A stretch of DNA of 64,000 bases, taken from the NCBI RefSeq assembly GCF_007475525.1, contig NZ_CP037899.1:1674001-1738000 (forward strand), written 5' to 3'. Under the pieces are notes generated by a model. The model saw nothing but the letters and a program-made list of their open reading frames with translations, searched no databases and was not told the DNA's origin. The DNA comes from Methylacidiphilum kamchatkense Kam1. GTDB lineage: Bacteria > Verrucomicrobiota > Verrucomicrobiia > Methylacidiphilales > Methylacidiphilaceae. How positions within the stretch are numbered: the first letter of the stretch is position 1; every line of letters starts with the position of its first letter. The translations under genes were made by a program, and so were the position numbers. Below, piece after piece: positions 2,235 through 33,993 of the stretch.

Positions 2235-2416
2235 ATTATATTATATATGTTAAATTTTTTATATTTAATTACATGTGTTTATTTTAAAATATTTTTATCC
2301 ATACTATCTTCTATTAATAATGAATAAAAAATATTGAAAAATGTACTCAAAGCATTCTTTATTCATAAATCCATTTGTTTTTTTTATCGATAGGAATTTA
2401 TTTTTTATATATTATA

Positions 2417-3586
2417 ATGAAGCCGTTTCATATAGCCTTTGTCATTCCATCGATCGACCATAAGAGCGGTGGGCCATCTGCTGCTATTGCTTTTATAGCA
2501 AAAACACTATTAGATTTAGGCCATAAAGTAACTTTACTAACTACTGATAAAAATATTGACCCAAAAGAAGGTGGAATGATAGAACTGGATCCACAAGTTG
2601 ATCTAAGGATTTTCCCACTTAAAGGAAAAATCAATCAAAAATTGATTCATTCTCCCCATTTGGTTTTCTGGCTTAAACAACATATTTCTCAGTTTAATTT
2701 ACTTGACATTCATTCAATTTGGTCTCTAATCACCTCTCAATCAGCAAAAATAGCTTTACAAAATAATATTCCCTATATTTTTACTCCTCATGGCATGACT
2801 TCTCGATGGGATTTCAATAAACATCCATTAGCAAAAAGTTTTTTCTATTTCTTCCATTTCAAAAAACAATGGGAAAAGGCTAATGCCATTCGATTTGTCA
2901 CAGAAAAAGAAAAAAATGATTGTATTTTACCAATTAATTCTTTTTGTGCGATTATCCCCTATTTTATTGAAATTCCAAAGGAGATTTTAGAAGAAAAGCC
3001 AAAAGCCATTATCAATGAAATTATCCTTCCTAAAAATGATCCTGTTCTTTTATTTTTAGGTCGTATTGACGCCCAAAAAGGGGTAATAGAAATGCTCCAA
3101 GCATTTGATTACGCTTGGAGACAAAATCCCAAAATTCACTTCTTCGTTGTTGGTCCCAGTAGTGGAATATATGGTCAAAAAGCCTATTGCATTTACCAAT
3201 CTCTTCAAAGTAAATCCCATATTCACTGGCTTGGTCCAGTGTACGGAAAAGATAAATGGTACTTATTTAAGAGAGCTGATATATTCATTACCTTATCCAA
3301 AAATGAAGGACTCCCTATAGCGGTTGTGGAAGCGCTAGGAATGGGCAAGCCTGTTATTGTTACTAGAGAATGTAATATCTTTGGGCTAGATCGATACGGA
3401 TGTGGTATTTATGTTAACGATAATCCAGAAGAAGTCGCTTCCTCTCTTCTTTTATTGATAGAAAATAATGAAAGGCTCTTAGAAATGGGAAAGAAAGCCA
3501 GACATTTTTATGAATCTCATTATTCGCAAGAAGTTGTAAGCCAAAAACTAATCGATTTTTATTTCCAGATCATTCGAAATAAATAA
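2417..3586 (+). CDS. GT4-family glycosyltransferase
   Basis: An intact GT4 enzyme of about 389 residues. I prefer the ATG at 2417 over an upstream ATG at 2375 in the same frame, because from 2417 the protein starts directly with the Rossmann strand MKPFHIAFVIPSIDHKSGG, typical of the family including the GGP acceptor-side loop. The C-terminal half has LFLGRIDAQKG, followed by a KNEGLPIAVVEALGMGKPVI donor-binding motif with the characteristic E-x7-E spacing. It probably adds a hexose during assembly of an O-antigen or exopolysaccharide. It is one of the few undamaged genes of this locus. Immediately downstream (3,610) begins the copied block derived from 8,623-9,244. Confidence 0.88.
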   Translation: MKPFHIAFVIPSIDHKSGGPSAAIAFIAKTLLDLGHKVTLLTTDKNIDPKEGGMIELDPQVDLRIFPLKGKINQKLIHSPHLVFWLKQHISQFNLLDIHSIWSLITSQSAKIALQNNIPYIFTPHGMTSRWDFNKHPLAKSFFYFFHFKKQWEKANAIRFVTEKEKNDCILPINSFCAIIPYFIEIPKEILEEKPKAIINEIILPKNDPVLLFLGRIDAQKGVIEMLQAFDYAWRQNPKIHFFVVGPSSGIYGQKAYCIYQSLQSKSHIHWLGPVYGKDKWYLFKRADIFITLSKNEGLPIAVVEALGMGKPVIVTRECNIFGLDRYGCGIYVNDNPEEVASSLLLLIENNERLLEMGKKARHFYESHYSQEVVSQKLIDFYFQIIRNK

Positions 3587-3609: not shown

Positions 3610-4233
3610 CACAATCGTAACTAATGATTTCTCTTAAGACATATTTATCGGTTTATTAGCAGACATAGTATCAGAATAATCAAAGAAATTCCATTCTTCG
3701 TACCAAATTCTTCTGGAAAATATAGTGATCTTGCCAAACTATCCCATCAAAAGTGATTGATATATCTTAGAAGGATGCTACAAATATTGAATATTCTAAT
3801 TTTACACTTCCATGCGCGAATAGGCTTTAAATATCCATCTTTATTCATAAACAATCAATGAATATAAAAAGAAAACTCAGATTCTTGATTAATACCTATT
3901 TTCCTACAATTCGTATCATTATTTTGAGAATCTACTATAATATATTTAGATATTTATTATTAGGAATAGCCCGTATCATCCATAAATTTCCTATTAGTTC
4001 AGAGCTGTTTGGTCCACCAAAAAGGGCGGTTTTATCAACACCTATTTTTCTAAAAAATAATAATACAGATATTGGTCAGATCATTTATGACATAAGTAAT
4101 ATCTGTGATACAGATCTTTTAGATAATGTTAATAGTCAATGCTATAATAATATGTATCCCTTTTATATTGCTATACTCAATAATGCAAGAATATGTCTCG
4201 ATAAAGGAGTTGTGATCAGTTCCTCTGATGATG
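3610..4233 (+). repeat. Direct repeat, copy 1 (partner 8623-9244)
   Basis: About 624 bp nearly identical to 8,623-9,244, in the same orientation and about 5 kb apart. Identity starts at CACAATCGTAAC and ends at CTCTGATGATG, then the two loci diverge abruptly. It spans a leader without an obvious gene (3,610-3,857) plus the first part of a GT61 gene. Small indels separate the copies: a 3-bp difference in an AAT run near 4,062, and two bases (AT) present in copy 2 but absent here near 4,156. No transposase or terminal inverted repeat is visible at either edge, so a recombination-type duplication is more likely than transposition. Confidence 0.92.
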
Positions 4234-4259
4234 CAGCAAACACAAAAAAGAAACCCTAA
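3858..4259 (+). pseudogene. Truncated GT61 glycosyltransferase (N-terminal part only)
   Basis: A 133-residue frame encoding only the N-terminal part of a GT61-type protein. It is the same as the start of the gene at 8,870 and similar in layout to the intact GT61 at 1,050 (compare ILNNARICLDKGVVIS with the corresponding ILYNARLLGNRGIVVT). The last residues (NTKKKP) come from unrelated sequence after the repeat ends at 4,233. The GHW and GPFGAG regions needed for catalysis are missing, so it cannot be active. This copy keeps the correct frame through IAILNNARICLDKG, whereas the 8,870 copy has a two-base insertion there. The copy may therefore preserve an older, less damaged state of the parent gene. 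Confidence 0.85.
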
Positions 4260-4293
4260 TATACTCTATAGTATAAGTGTAAACTAATTATCA

Positions 4294-4844
4294 TCAGTCT
4301 CTAGGCAATTGTCCACCCACAGCATATTCTAACCTTGCAAGAGCCGCATTATAATTATATTTAGCTTCCGCATACCCAATTTTTGCTTTAAGCAAAGCTT
4401 GCCTAGCAAGAACAGCCTGGACCCAGTTGGTTTCCCCACTTTCAAATAATCTTCTTGCTTGATAAAAACCTTTTTCGGCATCATTGACCGCATTTTCTTG
4501 AAAAGCAAAAGATTCTTTCGATCTTTTCAGCTGTTGATACAGCTCTCTTAATTCTGCAGGAATATCCACTTTAAGCTGAGTCACTTTTACCTGTGCAATA
4601 TCTTCCAAGGCCTTTTGCGCCTTTATCTTTCCATTGTTTTCCATAATATCAAAAAAATTCCATTGCCCTTGGACTCCAGCTGTCCATCCCCATTTTGGAT
4701 AAAGAATGTATACATTGCTGATGTTTTCGTACTGAAGGAGAGCATCAAGATTAGGATAAAATAACTTGCCTGGGCTGCAGCAACAGCTGCGTGAGCGGCA
4801 TAGAGCCCATGCAGCGCTACATTGAGATCTTTCCTTTTGCAAAG
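4294..4844 (-). pseudogene. Truncated TolC-family gene, copy of the 3' part of 12168-13574
   Basis: On the minus strand, 4,301-4,844 is almost identical to 12,175-12,719. It encodes the last ~175 residues of the TolC-family outer membrane protein, from the YPNLDALLQYE segment to VGGQLPRD. At the 5' end a two-base insertion (near 4,762) and further small differences throw the copy out of frame, so the apparent start of this reading frame is not homologous to the parent. Identity ends at about 4,844 in the T-rich AAAG stretch. Without the signal peptide and first half of the protein it cannot form a channel. It sits directly behind the truncated GT61 fragment, so two copied pieces from different sources abut here. 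Confidence 0.88.
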
Positions 4845-4921
4845 TTTTTTTAGTCTCATTATATTGATTTTATAAATGTATAGTTATTTTTAATTTATAA
4901 TCATATATATTATATTATATT

Positions 4922-5773
4922 ATGAAATATCCCATTTCTGTACTTATAGCTACTAAGAACGAAGAAAAAAACATAGAGAAATGTATTAAAAGTGTTTCAT
5001 GGGCTGATCAGATCTTTGTTGTAGATTCTTTTAGTACAGACCGAACTTGCGAAATTGCAGAAAAGATGGGGGCTATTGTCGTACCCTTTAAATGGGAAAA
5101 AAAGGACTTAGAAAGTATAACTGGTCACTAAGAATGGAAATATTCTTGGGTTCTTGTTGTAGATGCAGATGAAGAAGTCAGTGAAGATTTAAAAAATGAA
5201 ATATGCTCTACCCTTTCTCGTCCTACTTCTTATTCAGGATTTTTAGTTCACTATCACTATTATTTCTTGGGAAAATTGCTTAAACATGGGGCACCTATTT
5301 GGAAATTGATTCTATTTGAACATAAAAAAACAATAATTGAAAACCGTGAAATTCCTGAAATAACAGCTCATCTTGATGTAGAGCTCCATTCCCACCCTAT
5401 TGTTGATGGAAAGATTGGGAAATTACAATCTCCCATGATACATAATGATTATGAGAACTTATCTCATTTTTTTCACAAGCATAATATTTATTCAGATGGA
5501 GAGGCATTACTTAGAACAAAATATAACATTATCCATGGGGATAGACTAAAAGCGAATTTGTTTGGTTCCACACTAGAAAGACGAAGATGGCTTAAGAACT
5601 TTTTTTTATCAATTCCTGGGAAACCTCTTATATGGTTTTTATACTCTTATATTTTAAAAGGAGGATTTTTAGATGGATATCAAGGGTTAGTTTTTAATAT
5701 TTTAAAATCGTTTTACTGGTATCAAATAAGTTTAAAAGAATATGAAATAAAATGTTTTCTTAACAAGAAATAA
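4922..5773 (+). pseudogene. GT2-family glycosyltransferase (WaaE/KdtX-like) with paired frameshifts
   Basis: Two parts in the same frame, 4,922-5,131 and about 5,132-5,773, are separated by a TAA at 5,129-5,131. Residues 1-60 give a GT2 start (VLIATKNEEKNIEKCIKSV, then VVDSFSTDRT), and after the stop WVLVVDADEEV supplies the catalytic Asp motif. The local segment 5,105-5,135 reads sensibly one frame back (GLRKYNWSLR, like the K-R-NW-L motif of WaaE/KdtX proteins). It is therefore explained by a -1 shift at the A7G run 5,097-5,104 and a compensating +1 near 5,135. WaaE-type enzymes add a hexose to the lipopolysaccharide inner core. It is either a recently damaged gene or an indel artefact; apart from this ~30-base patch the sequence is well conserved. 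Confidence 0.72.
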
Positions 5774-8622: not shown

Positions 8623-9244
8623 CACAATCGTAACTAATGATTTCTCTTAAGACATATTTATCGGTTTATTAGCAGACATAGTATCAGAATAATCAAAGAA
8701 ATTCCACTCTTCGTACCAAATTCTTCTGGAAAATATAGTGATCTTGCCAAACTATCCCATCAAAAGTGATTGATATATCTTAGAAGGATGCTACAAATAT
8801 TGAATATTTTATTTTACACTTCCATGCGCGAATAGGCTTTAAATATCCATCTTTATTCATAAACAATCAATGAATATAAAAAGAAAACTCAGATTCTTGA
8901 TTAATACCTATTTTCCTACAATTCGCATCATTATTTTGAGAATCTACTATAACATATTTAGATATTTATTATTAGGAATAGCCCGTGTCATCCATAAATT
9001 TCCTATTAGTTCAGAGCTGTTTTGTCCACCAAAAAGAGCGGTTTTATCTACACCTATTTTTCTAAAAAATAATACAGATATTGCTCAGATCATTTATGAC
9101 ATAAGTAATATCTGTGATACAGATCTTTTAGATAATGCTAATAGTCAATGCTATAATAATATGTATATCCCTTTTATATTGCTATACTCAATAATGCAAG
9201 AATATGTCTCGATAAAGGAGTTGTGATGAGTTCCTCTGATGATG
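8623..9244 (+). repeat. Direct repeat, copy 2 (partner 3610-4233)
   Basis: About 622 bp almost identical to 3,610-4,233. This copy is probably the parental location, because the GT61-like coding sequence continues past the repeat edge here (to about 10,086). In copy 1 it is cut off at that edge and joined to a TolC fragment. The left edge cuts the minus-strand remnant at 7,869-8,622, so this side too may be a recombination junction. Confidence 0.92.
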
Positions 9245-10086
9245 TATTAGTTGTTTTGACGCCACCATAACCTTATGTAAACAGATACGAACACAGAATA
9301 TTTCTTTATTGGAAGCTTCCAATATTAAAAATAAGATTAAGAAAAGCTATTGCTATATTTACACATCCCATTTTGGCTGAAAATTATGGGCATTGGCTTT
9401 TCGAAGTAGTTTCAAAGTTTGTATATATCAAAGAAAAATATGGATAGGAAGATTTTGTTACTATTATTATAAACAAAATTAGTCTACCATTTCTAAAGGA
9501 GACCATAACCGTAGTTAATATTACAATAGAAAAACTTTTGACCCTAACTCCATCTTTCCATGCTAAAATAGAACATTTATATATTACTCCTTATTATTGG
9601 TGGGGAGCTGAAAATACTCCTAGATGGATATGTAAAGGAATCAGGCGTTTTTTCTTGGAAGTTTCTCTATAACTAGTATAATAAAAAGGATCTATTTATC
9701 CAGGCAATATTGCAAACGTCGAAGAATAATTAATGAAAAGGATTTGTTGCCATTATTAGCAGAATTTGAAATTGAAGTCATCTCACCTGAGATATATTCA
9801 ATATCTGAACAAGCAAAGATTTTTTCTGATGTGATATTGTGATTGATGCTTTTGGAGCTGCTTTATGCAATACAGTATTTTGTTTTCCAGTGACAGCAGT
9901 TCTTAAAGTAGGACATTCTATACTATCGAATAGTTTTTTTATGAAAACTTGGCCAATCAATGTAATTTGAAATATTGGAGAATAGAAGCAGTTTCTTATC
10001 AGCCATATAAGGGAAGAAATCCACAATATGAAGATATGGATGTAAATCCACACTTTTTAAGAACAACATTAATTGAAATTATCTAA
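8870..10086 (+). pseudogene. Degenerate GT61 (DUF563) glycosyltransferase
   Basis: The N-terminal part is open from ATG 8,870 to 9,226. A two-base insertion near 9,168 then destroys the frame. Further pieces of the same protein can be followed in shifting frames: THPILAENYGHWLFEVVSK around 9,360-9,420 (the GT61 GHW motif), ITPYYWWGAENTPRWI near 9,585-9,640, and a DAFGAALCNTVF piece (the GPFGAG-equivalent) near 9,845-9,880. At least one in-frame stop and several shifts separate them. It has the same architecture as the intact gene at 1,050. The number of lesions makes true decay much more likely than assembly error. Confidence 0.82.
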
Positions 10087-10500
10087 TATGTATCTCAGAA
10101 GGAAATTAGATGATTCTTTTCAAATATGAAGGCAAAGACAATCCAAGGCCAAATGTATAAAAGTAACTAATATTTAGGTAATCGAGCATAATTCTTGCAT
10201 AATCCATGTATAGCCAATTTTTGTTGAAAATTGTCCATTTTGACGAATGCTGCAGAGTATCGAAGGAGATTGTGAGAACGATGTTTTGCTACATTGTGAA
10301 TAACTTGTTTATTTAAATAATCATTTTTCCATCGACTAATACTAAAATAAAAAGTAGTGCTATTTTATGTATCTTCTTTCCCCGCGATTACATCGTAAAG
10401 ATGGCAGAGAAGTTTGACTGCTGGCAAACAATCAAGCTCGGGTCCGTCAAATCCTCACTGCTTTGCGGTTATCGGTCCTAGAACCATGGGTTTTTACAAA
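10087..10500. other. Gene-poor stretch with a short GC-richer island
   Basis: No reading frame here can be supported. The stretch is AT-rich except for about 10,379-10,490, which is visibly richer in GC than either side. One frame of that island (RVRQILTALRLSVLEPWVF) looks protein-like but has stops before and after. It could be a scrap of an old mobile element or foreign gene; I cannot identify it. Confidence 0.4.
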
Positions 10501-10785
10501 AAAATATACCTATAGTGCTAAATTTAAAAAAACACAATCAACTTTTTCCTAAAACATGAGTTATGCAATCTGATAATATCTACTTTAAAAGAGGAATTTT
10601 CATTTGCATTTCTGAAAGAAAACATATGTTTAATTCCATAGAATTTACAAAACTGGTTCTTATTCAATTTAGAAACACCCAATTGGCCAATTATTTTTTT
10701 GGATTTTATTAGTCAAGTATTAAATCTTGATGATGAGAAAAAAAACTTAAATGCCTTTTTATTTCTGGTAAAAATAAAACAATGA
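10500..10785 (+). pseudogene. Remnant of an unidentified gene, C-terminal part
   Basis: One frame from about 10,540 reads as plausible protein (LCNLIISTLKEEFSFAFLKE, then one TAG near 10,640, then WFLFNLETPNWPIIFLDFIS and on to FLFLVKIKQ). It ends in a TGA at 10,783-10,785. That stop overlaps the ATG of the following methyltransferase as ATGA, which is the spacing of a translationally coupled pair and the main reason to believe it was a gene. An in-frame stop and a probable shift near 10,535 show it is broken. The family is unknown. Confidence 0.4.
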
Positions 10786-11512
10786 TCCAACATTTCTATC
10801 CAGAAGTTCAATTTGGTGGATTTACTCAGATTGATGGTACAATCTTATTTTACACTCGCATCCATGCCCTTATTGAACCTCATTTTATTATCGCTGACAT
10901 TGGATGTGGAAAGGGAGATAGCGCATTTGACTCTAATCCTTATAGAAAAGAGCTTTATAATCTTCGTGGGCATTGTAAGCGTGTTATTGGCTTAGATATA
11001 GATCCAGATGCTAGAGATAATCTTCTCATTGATGAATTTCGACTTATTGAAGATAACAAGCCATGGCCTCTTGAAGATAATTCTATCTTCTTGTAGCTGA
11101 CTGGGTATTAGAACATCTAGAAAACCTGACTATTTTTTTTGAAGAATGTTTTCGAGTTGTACGATCTGAAGGATATATTTGTTTTCGAACGCCCAATTTA
11201 TTGAGTTATTTTCGATTATGCTCAAACCTTATTCTCAATCGCTACCACAAAACGATTAGAAACATCGTTCATTTTAAAGAAAAGGAATTAGATAGCTATC
11301 CTACATTTTACCGAGCCAATACCATATCAAAACTCAATCATTTACTAAAAAAGTACCATTTTGAAGGGATCGTTTTGGGACATAATCCTGAACCTGCATA
11401 TCTTCTCTTCAACAAATTTCTATATCGATTAGGAATAATCTATAATAAAATATCTCCCCGTTGGTTAGCAGTTAATCTTTTTGTCTTTGCAAGGAAAAAA
11501 ACTACCACTTAA
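10782..11512 (+). pseudogene. SAM-dependent methyltransferase with one frameshift
   Basis: The first frame (10,782-11,096) has the SAM motif IIADIGCGKGDSAFDSN (about residues 38-54) and VIGLDIDPDARDN. It then stops at 11,096 just before the motif IV region. The rest continues in another frame from about 11,090: ADWVLEHLEN, FRVVRSEGYICFRTPN and a basic C-terminus ending at 11,512. One indel at about 11,088-11,093 (in ATCTTCTTGTAG) explains the split. Joined, it is a normal methyltransferase of about 240 residues, presumably acting on a glycan or lipid intermediate. It ends next to the convergent acetyltransferase gene with no gap. Confidence 0.72.
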
Positions 11513-12085
11513 TTATTCTTGTGGTTGTCTCGATCTTATTGGTTTGGCGGGGTTCCCATGACAAATCATTCCTGAAGGTAAATCCTTAAACACTGAGCTT
11601 CTTGCTCCAATAACCGTACCGCGTCCAATTCGAACTCCAGGTCCAATAAAAACATCCGTGCAGATCCATACCTCTTTTTCAATCACAATTTTTTTAGCTT
11701 CTATATCAAATGTAATCTTGTCATAACGATGATTCCCTGTGCAAAGATAAGATCGTTGAGAAATAACAACATGTTCTCCTATCTCAATTTCTCCAAGACT
11801 ATATAAAACAACATTGTCTCCTATCCAAGAATAGTCCCCAATTTTCACTTTCCAAGGATAGGTTATCTGAACAGAAGGTCTTATTAAAACACATTTACCA
11901 ATTTCTGCTCCAAACAGCTTTAATAGAAACCTTCTCCAGCCATAAAGAAATTGAGGAGATAATCTAAATAAAGTGTCTTGCACTATCCACCAAAGCTGAA
12001 CCAACCAAGCAGGCCTTCCTCTAAATCCAACTGGTAACTGGAAAAGATCAAGCCTCTGATAAGTATTACTATTCTCTTCTTCCAT
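11513..12085 (-). CDS. WcaF-like acyltransferase (left-handed beta-helix)
   Basis: An intact 190-residue protein of the colanic-acid WcaF/NodL type. An N-terminal region with an RPAWLVQLWWIVQDTLF hydrophobic segment leads into hexapeptide repeats (IGKCVLIRPSV, VKIGDYSWIGDNV, IEIGEHVVISQ, VFIGPGVRIGRGTVIGA). Together these form the left-handed helix that binds acetyl-CoA. The TGNHRYDK loop carries the catalytic His, and the chain closes with the family's HGNPAKPIR. It probably O-acetylates a sugar of a surface polysaccharide or its lipid-linked precursor. It shares a strand with the TolC-family gene upstream (82-base gap) and is one of the undamaged genes of the glycan locus. Confidence 0.88.
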   Translation of the reverse strand: MEEENSNTYQRLDLFQLPVGFRGRPAWLVQLWWIVQDTLFRLSPQFLYGWRRFLLKLFGAEIGKCVLIRPSVQITYPWKVKIGDYSWIGDNVVLYSLGEIEIGEHVVISQRSYLCTGNHRYDKITFDIEAKKIVIEKEVWICTDVFIGPGVRIGRGTVIGARSSVFKDLPSGMICHGNPAKPIRSRQPQE

Positions 12086-12167
12086 CTCTTAGTCTATGTA
12101 AAGAGAGTATTAGAAATCTTGAGATTGCTTTTCCCCTTTCTAATAATCCTCATCACTTCATCTCATT

Positions 12168-13574
12168 TTATTCCCTAGGCAATTGTCCACCCACAGCATA
12201 TTCTAACCTTGCAAGAGCCGCATTGTAATTATATTTAGCTTCCGCATACCCAATTTTTGCTTTAAGCAAAGCTTGCCTAGCAAGAACAGCCTGGACCCAG
12301 TTGGTTTCCCCACTTTCAAATAATCTTCTTGCTTGATAAAAACCTTTTTCGGCATCATTGACCGCATTTTCTTGAAAAGCAAAAGATTCTTTCGATCTTT
12401 TCAGCTGTTGATACAGCTCTCTTAATTCTGCAGGAATATCCACTTTAAGCTGGGTCACTTTTACCTGTGCAATATCTTCCAAGGCCTTTTGCGCCTTTAT
12501 CTTTCCATTGTTTTCCATAATATCAAAAAAATTCCATTGCCCTTGGACTCCAGCTGTCCATCCCCATTTTGGATAAAGAATGTATACATTGCTGATGTTT
12601 TCGTACTGAAGAAGAGCATCAAGATTAGGATAATAACTTGCCTGGGCTGCAGCAACAGCTGCGTGAGCGGCATAGAGCCCATGCAGCGCAGCATTGAGAT
12701 CTGTCCTTTTTTGTAAAGCTATTTTTAAAGCCTCCTCATAAGGGACATCAAAAGGAACGATCTTGCTTTCTCCAGAAAGATATAAAGGATCGTTCTCTGA
12801 TCCACTTGGCAAATTCAGGATCATCCGGAGCTGTTCTCGAGCCTTCACATATTGATATCTAGCTTGAGCAAGATCGCCTTGGGCAGTGGAATATTCAGCT
12901 TGTGCACTCAAAGCTTGATACTGCGGGAGTTCTCCAGCCTTGTACATTTTCATGGTATAATCGGCAATCGCTTTACTTGCCTCCGTTAATTCTTCTCGAA
13001 TATCTACCACCTCCTGGCGAAAGAGGGTTAAATAAAAAGCTTCCTTTACCTGTGCTGTAGTCTTTAGTGCCATATCCATAGCCTGCCAAATCGCTTTTTC
13101 AACAAGCTCCTTTTGTTGACGAGCCAGTTTTACCGACTCCACATTAAGAATGGTTTGCTTAATCTGTACAGCACCAAGCCAACTTGTCCTTGTTAAGGGA
13201 TAAGCCTCGATAGTAGGCAAAAACATCAGCAAAGAGCTTTGCTCCCTTTGAGCCCGGTAGACCAATCCGCCATGAGGATAAAGCTTAGCCTTAAACTGCA
13301 TCTTGATCCCTTCTTGTTGTTCTATCGCTTTACGAGCAGCTACCACTTCGGGATTCGCATCTAAGGCCCTCTGAATGACCTCTTCTAGAGTCCAAGTCTT
13401 CTGTCTGTTTACAGAAAGCTGTTTAGGATAAATGAGTTCCACTGGTTTTTTTACACTATAAAAGAGAGCCGGTGATGAACTTTGAGACAGTTGATTTGAG
13501 GTTTGCTGGGCCAATAGAGTAAGAACGAAGAAGAAAAAGAAAAATTGGGAAAAAACAAAAATCTTTCTTTTCAT
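12168..13574 (-). CDS. TolC-family outer membrane efflux protein
   Basis: An intact 468-residue protein. The start KRKIFVFSQFFFFFFVLTLL is a signal peptide. Residues about 60-470 show the two-fold long-helix pattern of outer membrane factors (LEEVIQRALDANPEV, then a second half beginning EEALKIALQKRTDLNAAL). Such proteins form the trimeric outer membrane duct of tripartite exporters. There is no adaptor or pump gene beside it, so its partner is elsewhere, or it serves export linked to the adjacent glycan genes. Its last 545 bases are duplicated at 4,301-4,844 in a broken copy. It is distinct from the second TolC-type gene at 48,406. Confidence 0.9.
   Translation of the reverse strand: MKRKIFVFSQFFFFFFVLTLLAQQTSNQLSQSSSPALFYSVKKPVELIYPKQLSVNRQKTWTLEEVIQRALDANPEVVAARKAIEQQEGIKMQFKAKLYPHGGLVYRAQREQSSLLMFLPTIEAYPLTRTSWLGAVQIKQTILNVESVKLARQQKELVEKAIWQAMDMALKTTAQVKEAFYLTLFRQEVVDIREELTEASKAIADYTMKMYKAGELPQYQALSAQAEYSTAQGDLAQARYQYVKAREQLRMILNLPSGSENDPLYLSGESKIVPFDVPYEEALKIALQKRTDLNAALHGLYAAHAAVAAAQASYYPNLDALLQYENISNVYILYPKWGWTAGVQGQWNFFDIMENNGKIKAQKALEDIAQVKVTQLKVDIPAELRELYQQLKRSKESFAFQENAVNDAEKGFYQARRLFESGETNWVQAVLARQALLKAKIGYAEAKYNYNAALARLEYAVGGQLPRE
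12175..12719 (-). repeat. Source copy of the duplicated TolC 3' segment (partner 4301-4844)
   Basis: About 545 bp inside the intact TolC-family gene, nearly identical to 4,301-4,844 and in the same orientation, about 7.9 kb apart. Differences are a few substitutions (for example TTGTAATTATA versus TTATAATTATA near the 3' end) and small indels at the 5' side of the copied part. Because the surrounding gene is whole here, this is the donor. Confidence 0.92.
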
Positions 13575-14682
13575 TTTTACCTTCGTTTTTTCTTTGTGTC
13601 TAATTCAACAATCATGCAACAGGCGAAGCTATTTTTCTCTTAAGAGATCATTCATTTAATTGAATTACAATTCGAGCATCAATCTTCTTTGAAAAATTAC
13701 CTGTCACTTTAGCCCAAAAGCCAACCGTTGCTAGTTCTAAAACAGGATCAACATTACCAATCTCATTCCTTCTATTTTCTCATAAGGACTATCAGCAGGG
13801 CATTTCCTTTTTTGATCCAATTTGCCAAATTGTTTTGAATCACACATTGGTCAACACTTGAGTTGTAAAAAAATTAATTTTCCTATCCACTAGTTTTAAT
13901 TTTTCAAAAGATTCTTCCTTATTTTCTATTTTTTTTAAACATACCCTTCGATTGGGATACGAATAATTTGCCGGTTTTTAGTTACACAAAAGACCCGTTA
14001 CTTTCTTATGTTTTTTAAATTATTCGTTTTTTTCCACTTCACTGTTTTAGTCTAACACTCATTACTTTGTAAAGATATTCAATACCTTTGGACTGGATCT
14101 AAGCTTTTTCTATTTCGGACTGGCATCTCTCCTACCAATTCTGCCTCCATACCTATGCCTTTTCTTAAGAAATCAAAAAGATAACTAAAGAAAAAATAAG
14201 AAATAACTTTATTGAGCATAAACTTTTAACAAGTCCTTTCCTCATGACTTGATATTCAATGTTCTTACTGAAATAGTAAAGAGAAGAACCAAGTCTTTGC
14301 ATTATCACTTGAAAAAAAAACAATGGATTTTAACTTAGCAAAGAATAGCTCTTTTTTCTTCCATTACTCTAGCAACATAAATGCAATGTTCTCTTTTCAA
14401 AAAGCCTTTTCCATTCTTAGTTCTTAGACCAACAATCTGTAATAGAACCCTTCCTACTTGACGAATGGAGGCCTTTCAAAGACACAGTCGAAAGAACGAT
14501 TTATAAAACTCGATTGAGCACGGATCGAATATAGCAAGGATATATATTTTCGCTGTTTTTTATATTTGGATTTCCTTTTTTTGTGGGGAGAACCAAGAAG
14601 CTAGTTTTGCTTTCATGCTTATAACAAAGCATACCACTCTTTTGTGCTAGCTTAGCTTGAGCAAAGGATGTTGTTATAACAG
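13575..14682. other. Non-coding or decayed stretch with one possible gene remnant
   Basis: There is no intact gene in 1.1 kb. On the minus strand, 13,860-13,648 gives two adjoining protein-like pieces in different frames (NNLANWIKKGNALLIVLMR, then VDPVLELATVGFWAKVTG through DARIVIQLNE and a stop). This suggests the end of a lost gene that I cannot identify. The remainder to 14,682 is AT-rich with no credible frame. A 61-codon minus frame at 14,501-14,686 overlaps the end of the oxidoreductase and has no supporting features. Confidence 0.4.
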
Positions 14683-33141: not shown

Positions 33142-33993
33142 ATGCGTCTCCTATCCAATCACTTCATGAAACTTTTGCTGAAGCGTTATTATTTATGGCT
33201 TTTGTTTTTCTTTCCTATTCTAGAAGCAAGCCATGCCCAAAACCCAAAGACACAACAAGAAAGTTATTCTCAGCAGCCCAGCGATAATACTACCCCCATT
33301 TCCTTTTCCCAAAGCAAATTAAGACCATCCGATAAACCCTTAATCCTCAAAGGCAAGGCTTTCCAAGAAAAGCAGCTTCACTTCTTTACAAATGCAATCC
33401 AGTTAGAACAGCGAAAAGACTGGAAAGGTCTCCTGGTGTTTTCAAAACAATGGATTGCAGCTTTTCCTTCTGAAGCGGCCGCCTATTTTTTCCTTGGCAT
33501 TGCCTACGAAAACCTCGGTCATTATTCTCGGGCGATCGAAGCGTATAAAAAAGCGATCCATCTTAAAAAAGACTTTGCGAAGGCATGGTGTAATCTTGGA
33601 ACTTGTTATGCCTATGTAGGACAGTATGCAGAAGCAACCGAAGCTTTCAAGCATGCCTTAGCAGGTCAACCAGATTTAGCAAAGGCTTGGTCCAATTTAG
33701 GGGCTTGCTATATTGAACTAGGCCAGTATTCCCAGGCAATCAAAGCGTTAAAAAAAGCAATCAGACTTAAGCCAGAACTCGCTGAATCCTGGTGTAATCT
33801 TGGAACCGCCTATGGAGAAAAGAAAGACTATCACAAAGCCATTGAATCTTTGCGCAAAGCTATTGAGCTTAGACCTGATTATATGGAAGCCTGGTGGAAC
33901 TTAGCAAAAATTTATGAAAAAACCAAGAACGTAGCAGAAAAGACGAAAGCTGAACAGAAAATTAAAGAAATAGCGCATCAAAAGGCAAAATAA
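33142..33993 (+). CDS. Exported TPR-repeat protein
   Basis: 283 residues from 33,142; ATG 33,166 (MKLLLKRYYLWLLFFFPILE) gives the cleaner signal peptide and may be the true start. After a Ser/Gln-rich linker come about five tetratricopeptide repeats (from about residue 110 to 270), with the typical AW.NLG..Y...G.Y..AI...KKAI.L.P consensus, for example AWSNLGACYIELGQYSQAIK. It is a protein-protein interaction scaffold in the periplasm. It starts 9 bases after the tandem GNA1162-like gene, so the two probably work together at the envelope. Confidence 0.85.
   Translation: MRLLSNHFMKLLLKRYYLWLLFFFPILEASHAQNPKTQQESYSQQPSDNTTPISFSQSKLRPSDKPLILKGKAFQEKQLHFFTNAIQLEQRKDWKGLLVFSKQWIAAFPSEAAAYFFLGIAYENLGHYSRAIEAYKKAIHLKKDFAKAWCNLGTCYAYVGQYAEATEAFKHALAGQPDLAKAWSNLGACYIELGQYSQAIKALKKAIRLKPELAESWCNLGTAYGEKKDYHKAIESLRKAIELRPDYMEAWWNLAKIYEKTKNVAEKTKAEQKIKEIAHQKAK

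Follow-up and report, generated by a model that had tools for sequence, protein, structure and literature searches.

The block at positions 3610–4844 of a 64-kb window of the Methylacidiphilum kamchatkense Kam1 genome (the whole stretch of DNA analysed; C1:1674001–1738000 of the 2,202,032-bp chromosome) is a copy, and reads as a patchwork drawn from three templates nearby: one is the beginning of a GT61 glycosyltransferase gene now in decay, another a former 3' flank of tolC, and the last the 3' end of tolC itself. The two longer pieces keep the order of their sources, all three are in one orientation, and they overlap where they join. As to how the block arose, we lean towards a single replicative template-switching event, or something like it (microhomology-mediated break-induced replication).

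Composition of the block and its surroundings

An earlier note, made from the DNA letters alone, had described two copied segments in direct orientation, the product of a local duplication that kept source order. Self-BLAST of the 64-kb window bears this out, recovering one direct pair between 3610–4233 and 8623–9244 (97.3% over 626 columns, E = 0) and a second between 4298–4851 and 12172–12725 (97.5% over 556 columns, E = 0). The only other repeat pair listed in the 64 kb at a threshold of E 1e-5, 33514–33602 / 33718–33806 (73%), is an 89-bp direct repeat spaced 204 bp. The pieces of the block, their sources within the window and the genes around them are:

2375–3586, + strand: left neighbour, a GT4-type glycosyltransferase gene (PF00534, E 2.8e-27)
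3610–4233, + strand: piece Z, copy of 8623–9244, holding the start of a GT61-type gene and ~250 bp upstream of the gene
4234–4300, + strand: piece S, the 67-base spacer, probably an old tolC 3' flank (identity to an upstream stub spans 4232–4311; likeness to the SolV flank)
4301–4838, − strand: piece T, frameshifted copy of the tolC 3' end (BLAST runs to 4851, the last bases poor)
4922–5770, + strand: right neighbour, a frameshifted gene in two frames (4901–5128 and 5132–5770)
8623–9244, + strand: source of Z by its identity to the block, in a decayed GT61 glycosyltransferase gene with start codon at 8870
11513–12085, − strand: hexapeptide acyltransferase gene (PF00132), now adjoining the tolC 3' end
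12168–13574, − strand: intact tolC-family outer-membrane efflux gene (PF02321, E 5.1e-44), of which 12172–12725 is the source of T

The match of the first pair ends exactly at 4233/9244; that of the second is exact from 4301/12175 and breaks down as an alignment after ~4838. Small differences have accumulated, as the note had said, with substitutions and separate indels in both pairs: 11 mismatches and three gap openings in the first, and, within 4301–4838 of the second, six substitutions together with a frameshifting 2-bp insertion in the block. Pieces Z and T have diverged to a similar degree (Fisher p 0.82 with 11/626 and 8/545, the second count being 6 if taken strictly inside 4301–4838). 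Judged by its sequence, the block is apparently non-functional and decaying, with no sign of function.

The right neighbour looks glycosyltransferase-like from a reading of its translation; its longer part (5132–5770) has no Pfam match and shares 33–36% identity with cluster genes in four relatives. An intact GT61 protein encoded at 1050–2231 (PF04577) matches 9166–9946 in three frames and, weakly, the block (E 0.003); the protein of 1050–2234 found no match in the plasmid collection. Of 20 regional ORFs searched against Pfam, 14 gained a family at E <= 0.01, two of these only with scores short of the curated threshold, the families being glycosyltransferases, methyltransferases, a MurJ-like flippase, an O-antigen-ligase fragment, two acyltransferases and tolC. 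Neither a transposase nor an integrase is present among these 20 ORFs, in line with the note's remark that the block has no transposase (the region holds many more frames of at least 55 aa), and scans of the window with Rfam (gathering thresholds) and for tRNAs gave no matches. Upstream of tolC, ~130 bp (13814–13944) have a 69% match at C1:634223–634352 on the other strand.

The spacer, the upstream stub and their relative ages

The ~67 bases between the two main pieces, which the note had taken for unrelated sequence, prove to have relatives. A third copy of 4232–4324, comprising the spacer and the last tolC bases, lies outside the window at C1:1667485–1667577 (98%), in a stub that precedes the spacer of the block by 10.7 kb and the left edge of the window by 6.5 kb. 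Over 4232–4311 the block agrees with the stub at 80/80 bp; past 4311 it departs from the stub, at 4312 and 4315, and matches the intact tolC both there and beyond the stub's end. The 11 bp at 4301–4311 are common to block, stub and tolC, and are preceded at 4300 by a T common to block and stub that is absent from both SolV copies and from the Kam1 tolC gene. The stub runs directly into an O-antigen-ligase-like frame that is truncated (Wzy_C at 19 bits, below its cut-off).

The 67-bp spacer was aligned locally with three tolC flanks, and each score was compared with those of 1000 dinucleotide shuffles. For the M. fumariolicum SolV tolC 3' flank, 2/1000 shuffles scored as high; for the sequence beside the tolC fragment displaced in SolV (the SolV stub) the figure was 12/1000, a modest result, and the present Kam1 tolC flank shows no likeness (545/1000). 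Since the spacer resembles the SolV flank and not the present Kam1 one, the most fitting reading is that it once flanked tolC on the 3' side and that the Kam1 gene has probably lost it.

The stretch from FkbM to the stub is homologous between Kam1 and SolV (0/1000 shuffles), and this arrangement therefore predates the split between the two. The block is younger than the stub arrangement, as it differs less from its sources than from SolV tolC (7.4% over 567 bp). The absence of any difference in 80 bp has a chance of 0.20 at 2% divergence, 0.017 at 5% and 0.002 at 7.4%, and fits a recent copying of the stub. When the six substitutions in 4301–4838 are polarised by SolV, three fall to the block, one to the intact gene and two are unassignable; together with the frameshifting insertion, these upheld the direction proposed in the note, with the 3.6–4.8 kb block as the copy.

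Formation of the block

In the template-switching account that we favour, synthesis would have copied ~620 bp at 8623–9244, then switched with a 2-bp overlap (TG) to the old tolC 3' flank in the stub, and so entered the 11 bp CTAGGCAATTG common to the stub and the intact tolC; at these shared bases it would have switched to tolC, copied ~540 bp, and finally rejoined between two adjacent genes of the polysaccharide locus. Three templates in the same orientation, overlaps at the joins, similar divergence of Z and T, and the finding of no mobile element are the traces expected of template switching, and the inserted pieces do trace to several nearby templates (8623–9244, C1:1667485–1667577 and 12172–12725). 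The overlaps amount to 2 bp at the Z/S junction and 11 bp at S/T, with, by eye, none at the outer left junction and ~3 bp at the outer right; those of 2–3 bp could be chance, the 2-bp overlap is weak, and as evidence the microhomology is not strong. The case for the switch into tolC consists of two letters and the shortness of the stub, and piece S need not have come from the stub if tolC had kept its flank until then. Compared across Kam1 and SolV, the final letters of the tolC tails show no clean division between ‘stub’ and ‘gene’, so that the true counterparts among these tails are ambiguous. We infer one replicative event rather than several separate ones, a reading drawn from one genome of the species, with no intermediate; one event and several would look alike in the present sequence. 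A published precedent is an E. coli amplification in the form of a partially deleted duplication, explained by two direct template switches (PMC3161906). The block resembles that case in being direct and local, with its middle missing and with short overlaps, in part perhaps chance, where that case has microhomology at the junctions; it differs in that its join comes from a third template, that it lies apart from its source, that it is old and decayed, and that no amplification is seen.

The note had proposed instead a duplication of 8623–12719 followed by deletion of its middle; the local, direct and order-preserving part of this proposal stands, but the whole is not the simplest account. In its workable form—a duplication from 8623 to past 12725 that carried the old flank, with the copy's middle then lost down to 67 bp, and a later loss of the source flank and separation of the copies—it is possible, if doubtful. 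The preserved order and orientation and the similar divergence of both pieces agree with it, as does a SolV tolC that still has such a flank; it works, however, only if the Kam1 tolC then had the old flank, it calls for later flank loss and separation, and three further steps are required in all. It also predicts a spacer that dates back to the divergence of stub and gene, yet 80 bp are identical to the stub; the copies do not abut, the spacer is itself a third copied piece, the switch to tolC falls inside 11 shared bases, and the present tolC is without the flank. A plain tandem duplication was rejected: the copies are not adjacent, being held apart by the 3.8 kb between 4851 and 8623, which is not itself duplicated in the window. 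An origin of the block in another lineage, followed by its import within the 18.6 kb from stub to tolC, strikes us as unlikely; recombination in tolC on one side and illegitimate joining at the stub on the other would have brought it in. Past the stub the DNA does begin inside the O-antigen-ligase-like frame, and the cluster genes of Kam1 share ~70% identity with those of SolV or Yel, below most of the flanking DNA (92–74%); the spacer's identity to the resident stub nevertheless fits a local origin, and none of the other four Methylacidiphilum genomes yielded a donor. Homology-facilitated illegitimate recombination after DNA uptake combines one homologous with one illegitimate join; it could explain the stub, the foreign DNA after the stub and the complete tolC, but alone it makes no three-source mosaic such as the block.

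Very improbable, in our judgement, is that an integrative element uses the tolC 3' ends as attachment sites and pushed the old gene ends aside on integrating. All displaced ends contain the tolC stop side and flank, but they are unequal (about 27, 115–130 and 540–554 bp), where such an element should be flanked by equal direct repeats of the gene end, and no integrase occurs among the 20 ORFs scanned; we dropped this reading on account of the unequal ends. Transposition is likewise disfavoured, with no transposase among the same ORFs and no element ends visible by eye at the block: a composite transposon or IS-borne duplication would similarly copy DNA to a new place, but the block has no transposase that we found and, by eye, neither a target duplication nor a terminal inverted repeat. 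An assembly artefact, finally, is scarcely credible. Repeats and small close-range duplications caused misassemblies in the SolV draft, according to the published account (PMC4210602); here the copies differ from their sources, each with its own indels, and so are not one sequence assembled twice, and the published Kam1 assembly, described in the genome paper as PacBio/HGAP3 at 489x with a mean read length of 14,734 bp (PMC6688271), makes misassembly unlikely. 

Displaced tolC ends and the polysaccharide locus

Five Methylacidiphilum genomes were compared: Kam1, SolV, M. infernorum V4, Yel (a draft of about 90 contigs) and G002, the first three being 2,202,032, 2,476,671 and 2,287,145 bp long according to the Kam1 paper (PMC6688271). 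A displaced or truncated tolC 3' end is present in three of the five (Kam1, SolV and Yel), and searches of V4 and G002 returned none. The search of genome contigs with tolC confirmed two relatives; V4 has a second tolC relative, 65% identical, and the Kam1 TolC protein is 94% identical to that of SolV.

Over the stretch compared, collinearity of SolV with Kam1 extends to window position −26,192, at 92%, then 85%, and 74% near the end, and 73 bases past that point the SolV sequence is within the tolC flank; 38 kb of mainly polysaccharide genes at the Kam1 site are therefore missing from the same site in SolV. At the SolV join (C1:1903546–1903800), an N-acetyltransferase gene that is intact in Kam1 is cut short at the tolC 3' flank, with 57 residues matching. 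SolV has cluster genes at 465–510 kb, with a tolC 3' fragment at C1:505667–505796; this fragment is 1.4 Mb from the intact tolC and, on a reading of the ORF list, sits beside repeated transposase-like ORFs. The distance between cluster and tolC is ~18 kb in V4 and large in G002; in Yel the two share a contig. The Yel tolC matches only up to its last 377 bp, after which comes DNA without a match to the Kam1 stretch compared. At Yel C45:43816–47156 the 3' end of the tolC frame is replaced by DNA with a 777-aa ORF. The ~70% identity of the cluster genes suggests exchange with other lineages.

Two genomic islands, 17 and 4.8 kb in size, are described in the Kam1 genome paper, and the word ‘polysaccharide’ is absent from the parts of it examined (PMC6688271). 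Among the listed Methylacidiphilum papers on polysaccharide, genomic island, glycosyltransferase, exopolysaccharide and gene cluster, judged by titles and the starts of abstracts, we found no description of the locus.

The block is a genuine mosaic duplication in decay; it adds a further case to a known type of rearrangement and is no new system. More speculatively, the tolC 3' end may be a standing breakpoint at which surface-polysaccharide segments of Methylacidiphilum are broken, swapped and rejoined; the tails would then record successive exchanges, and the block would be a second-order product templated on one such tail. For the biology of this methane-eating bacterium, the block offers a readable natural case of a complex local duplication in an acidophilic Verrucomicrobium, lying in a much-rearranged region of sugar-coat genes with no mobile element found nearby. 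It also marks the tolC 3' end as a site of repeated breaking and rejoining of the polysaccharide locus; of all these findings, the repeated occurrence of displaced tolC tails most deserves to be followed.
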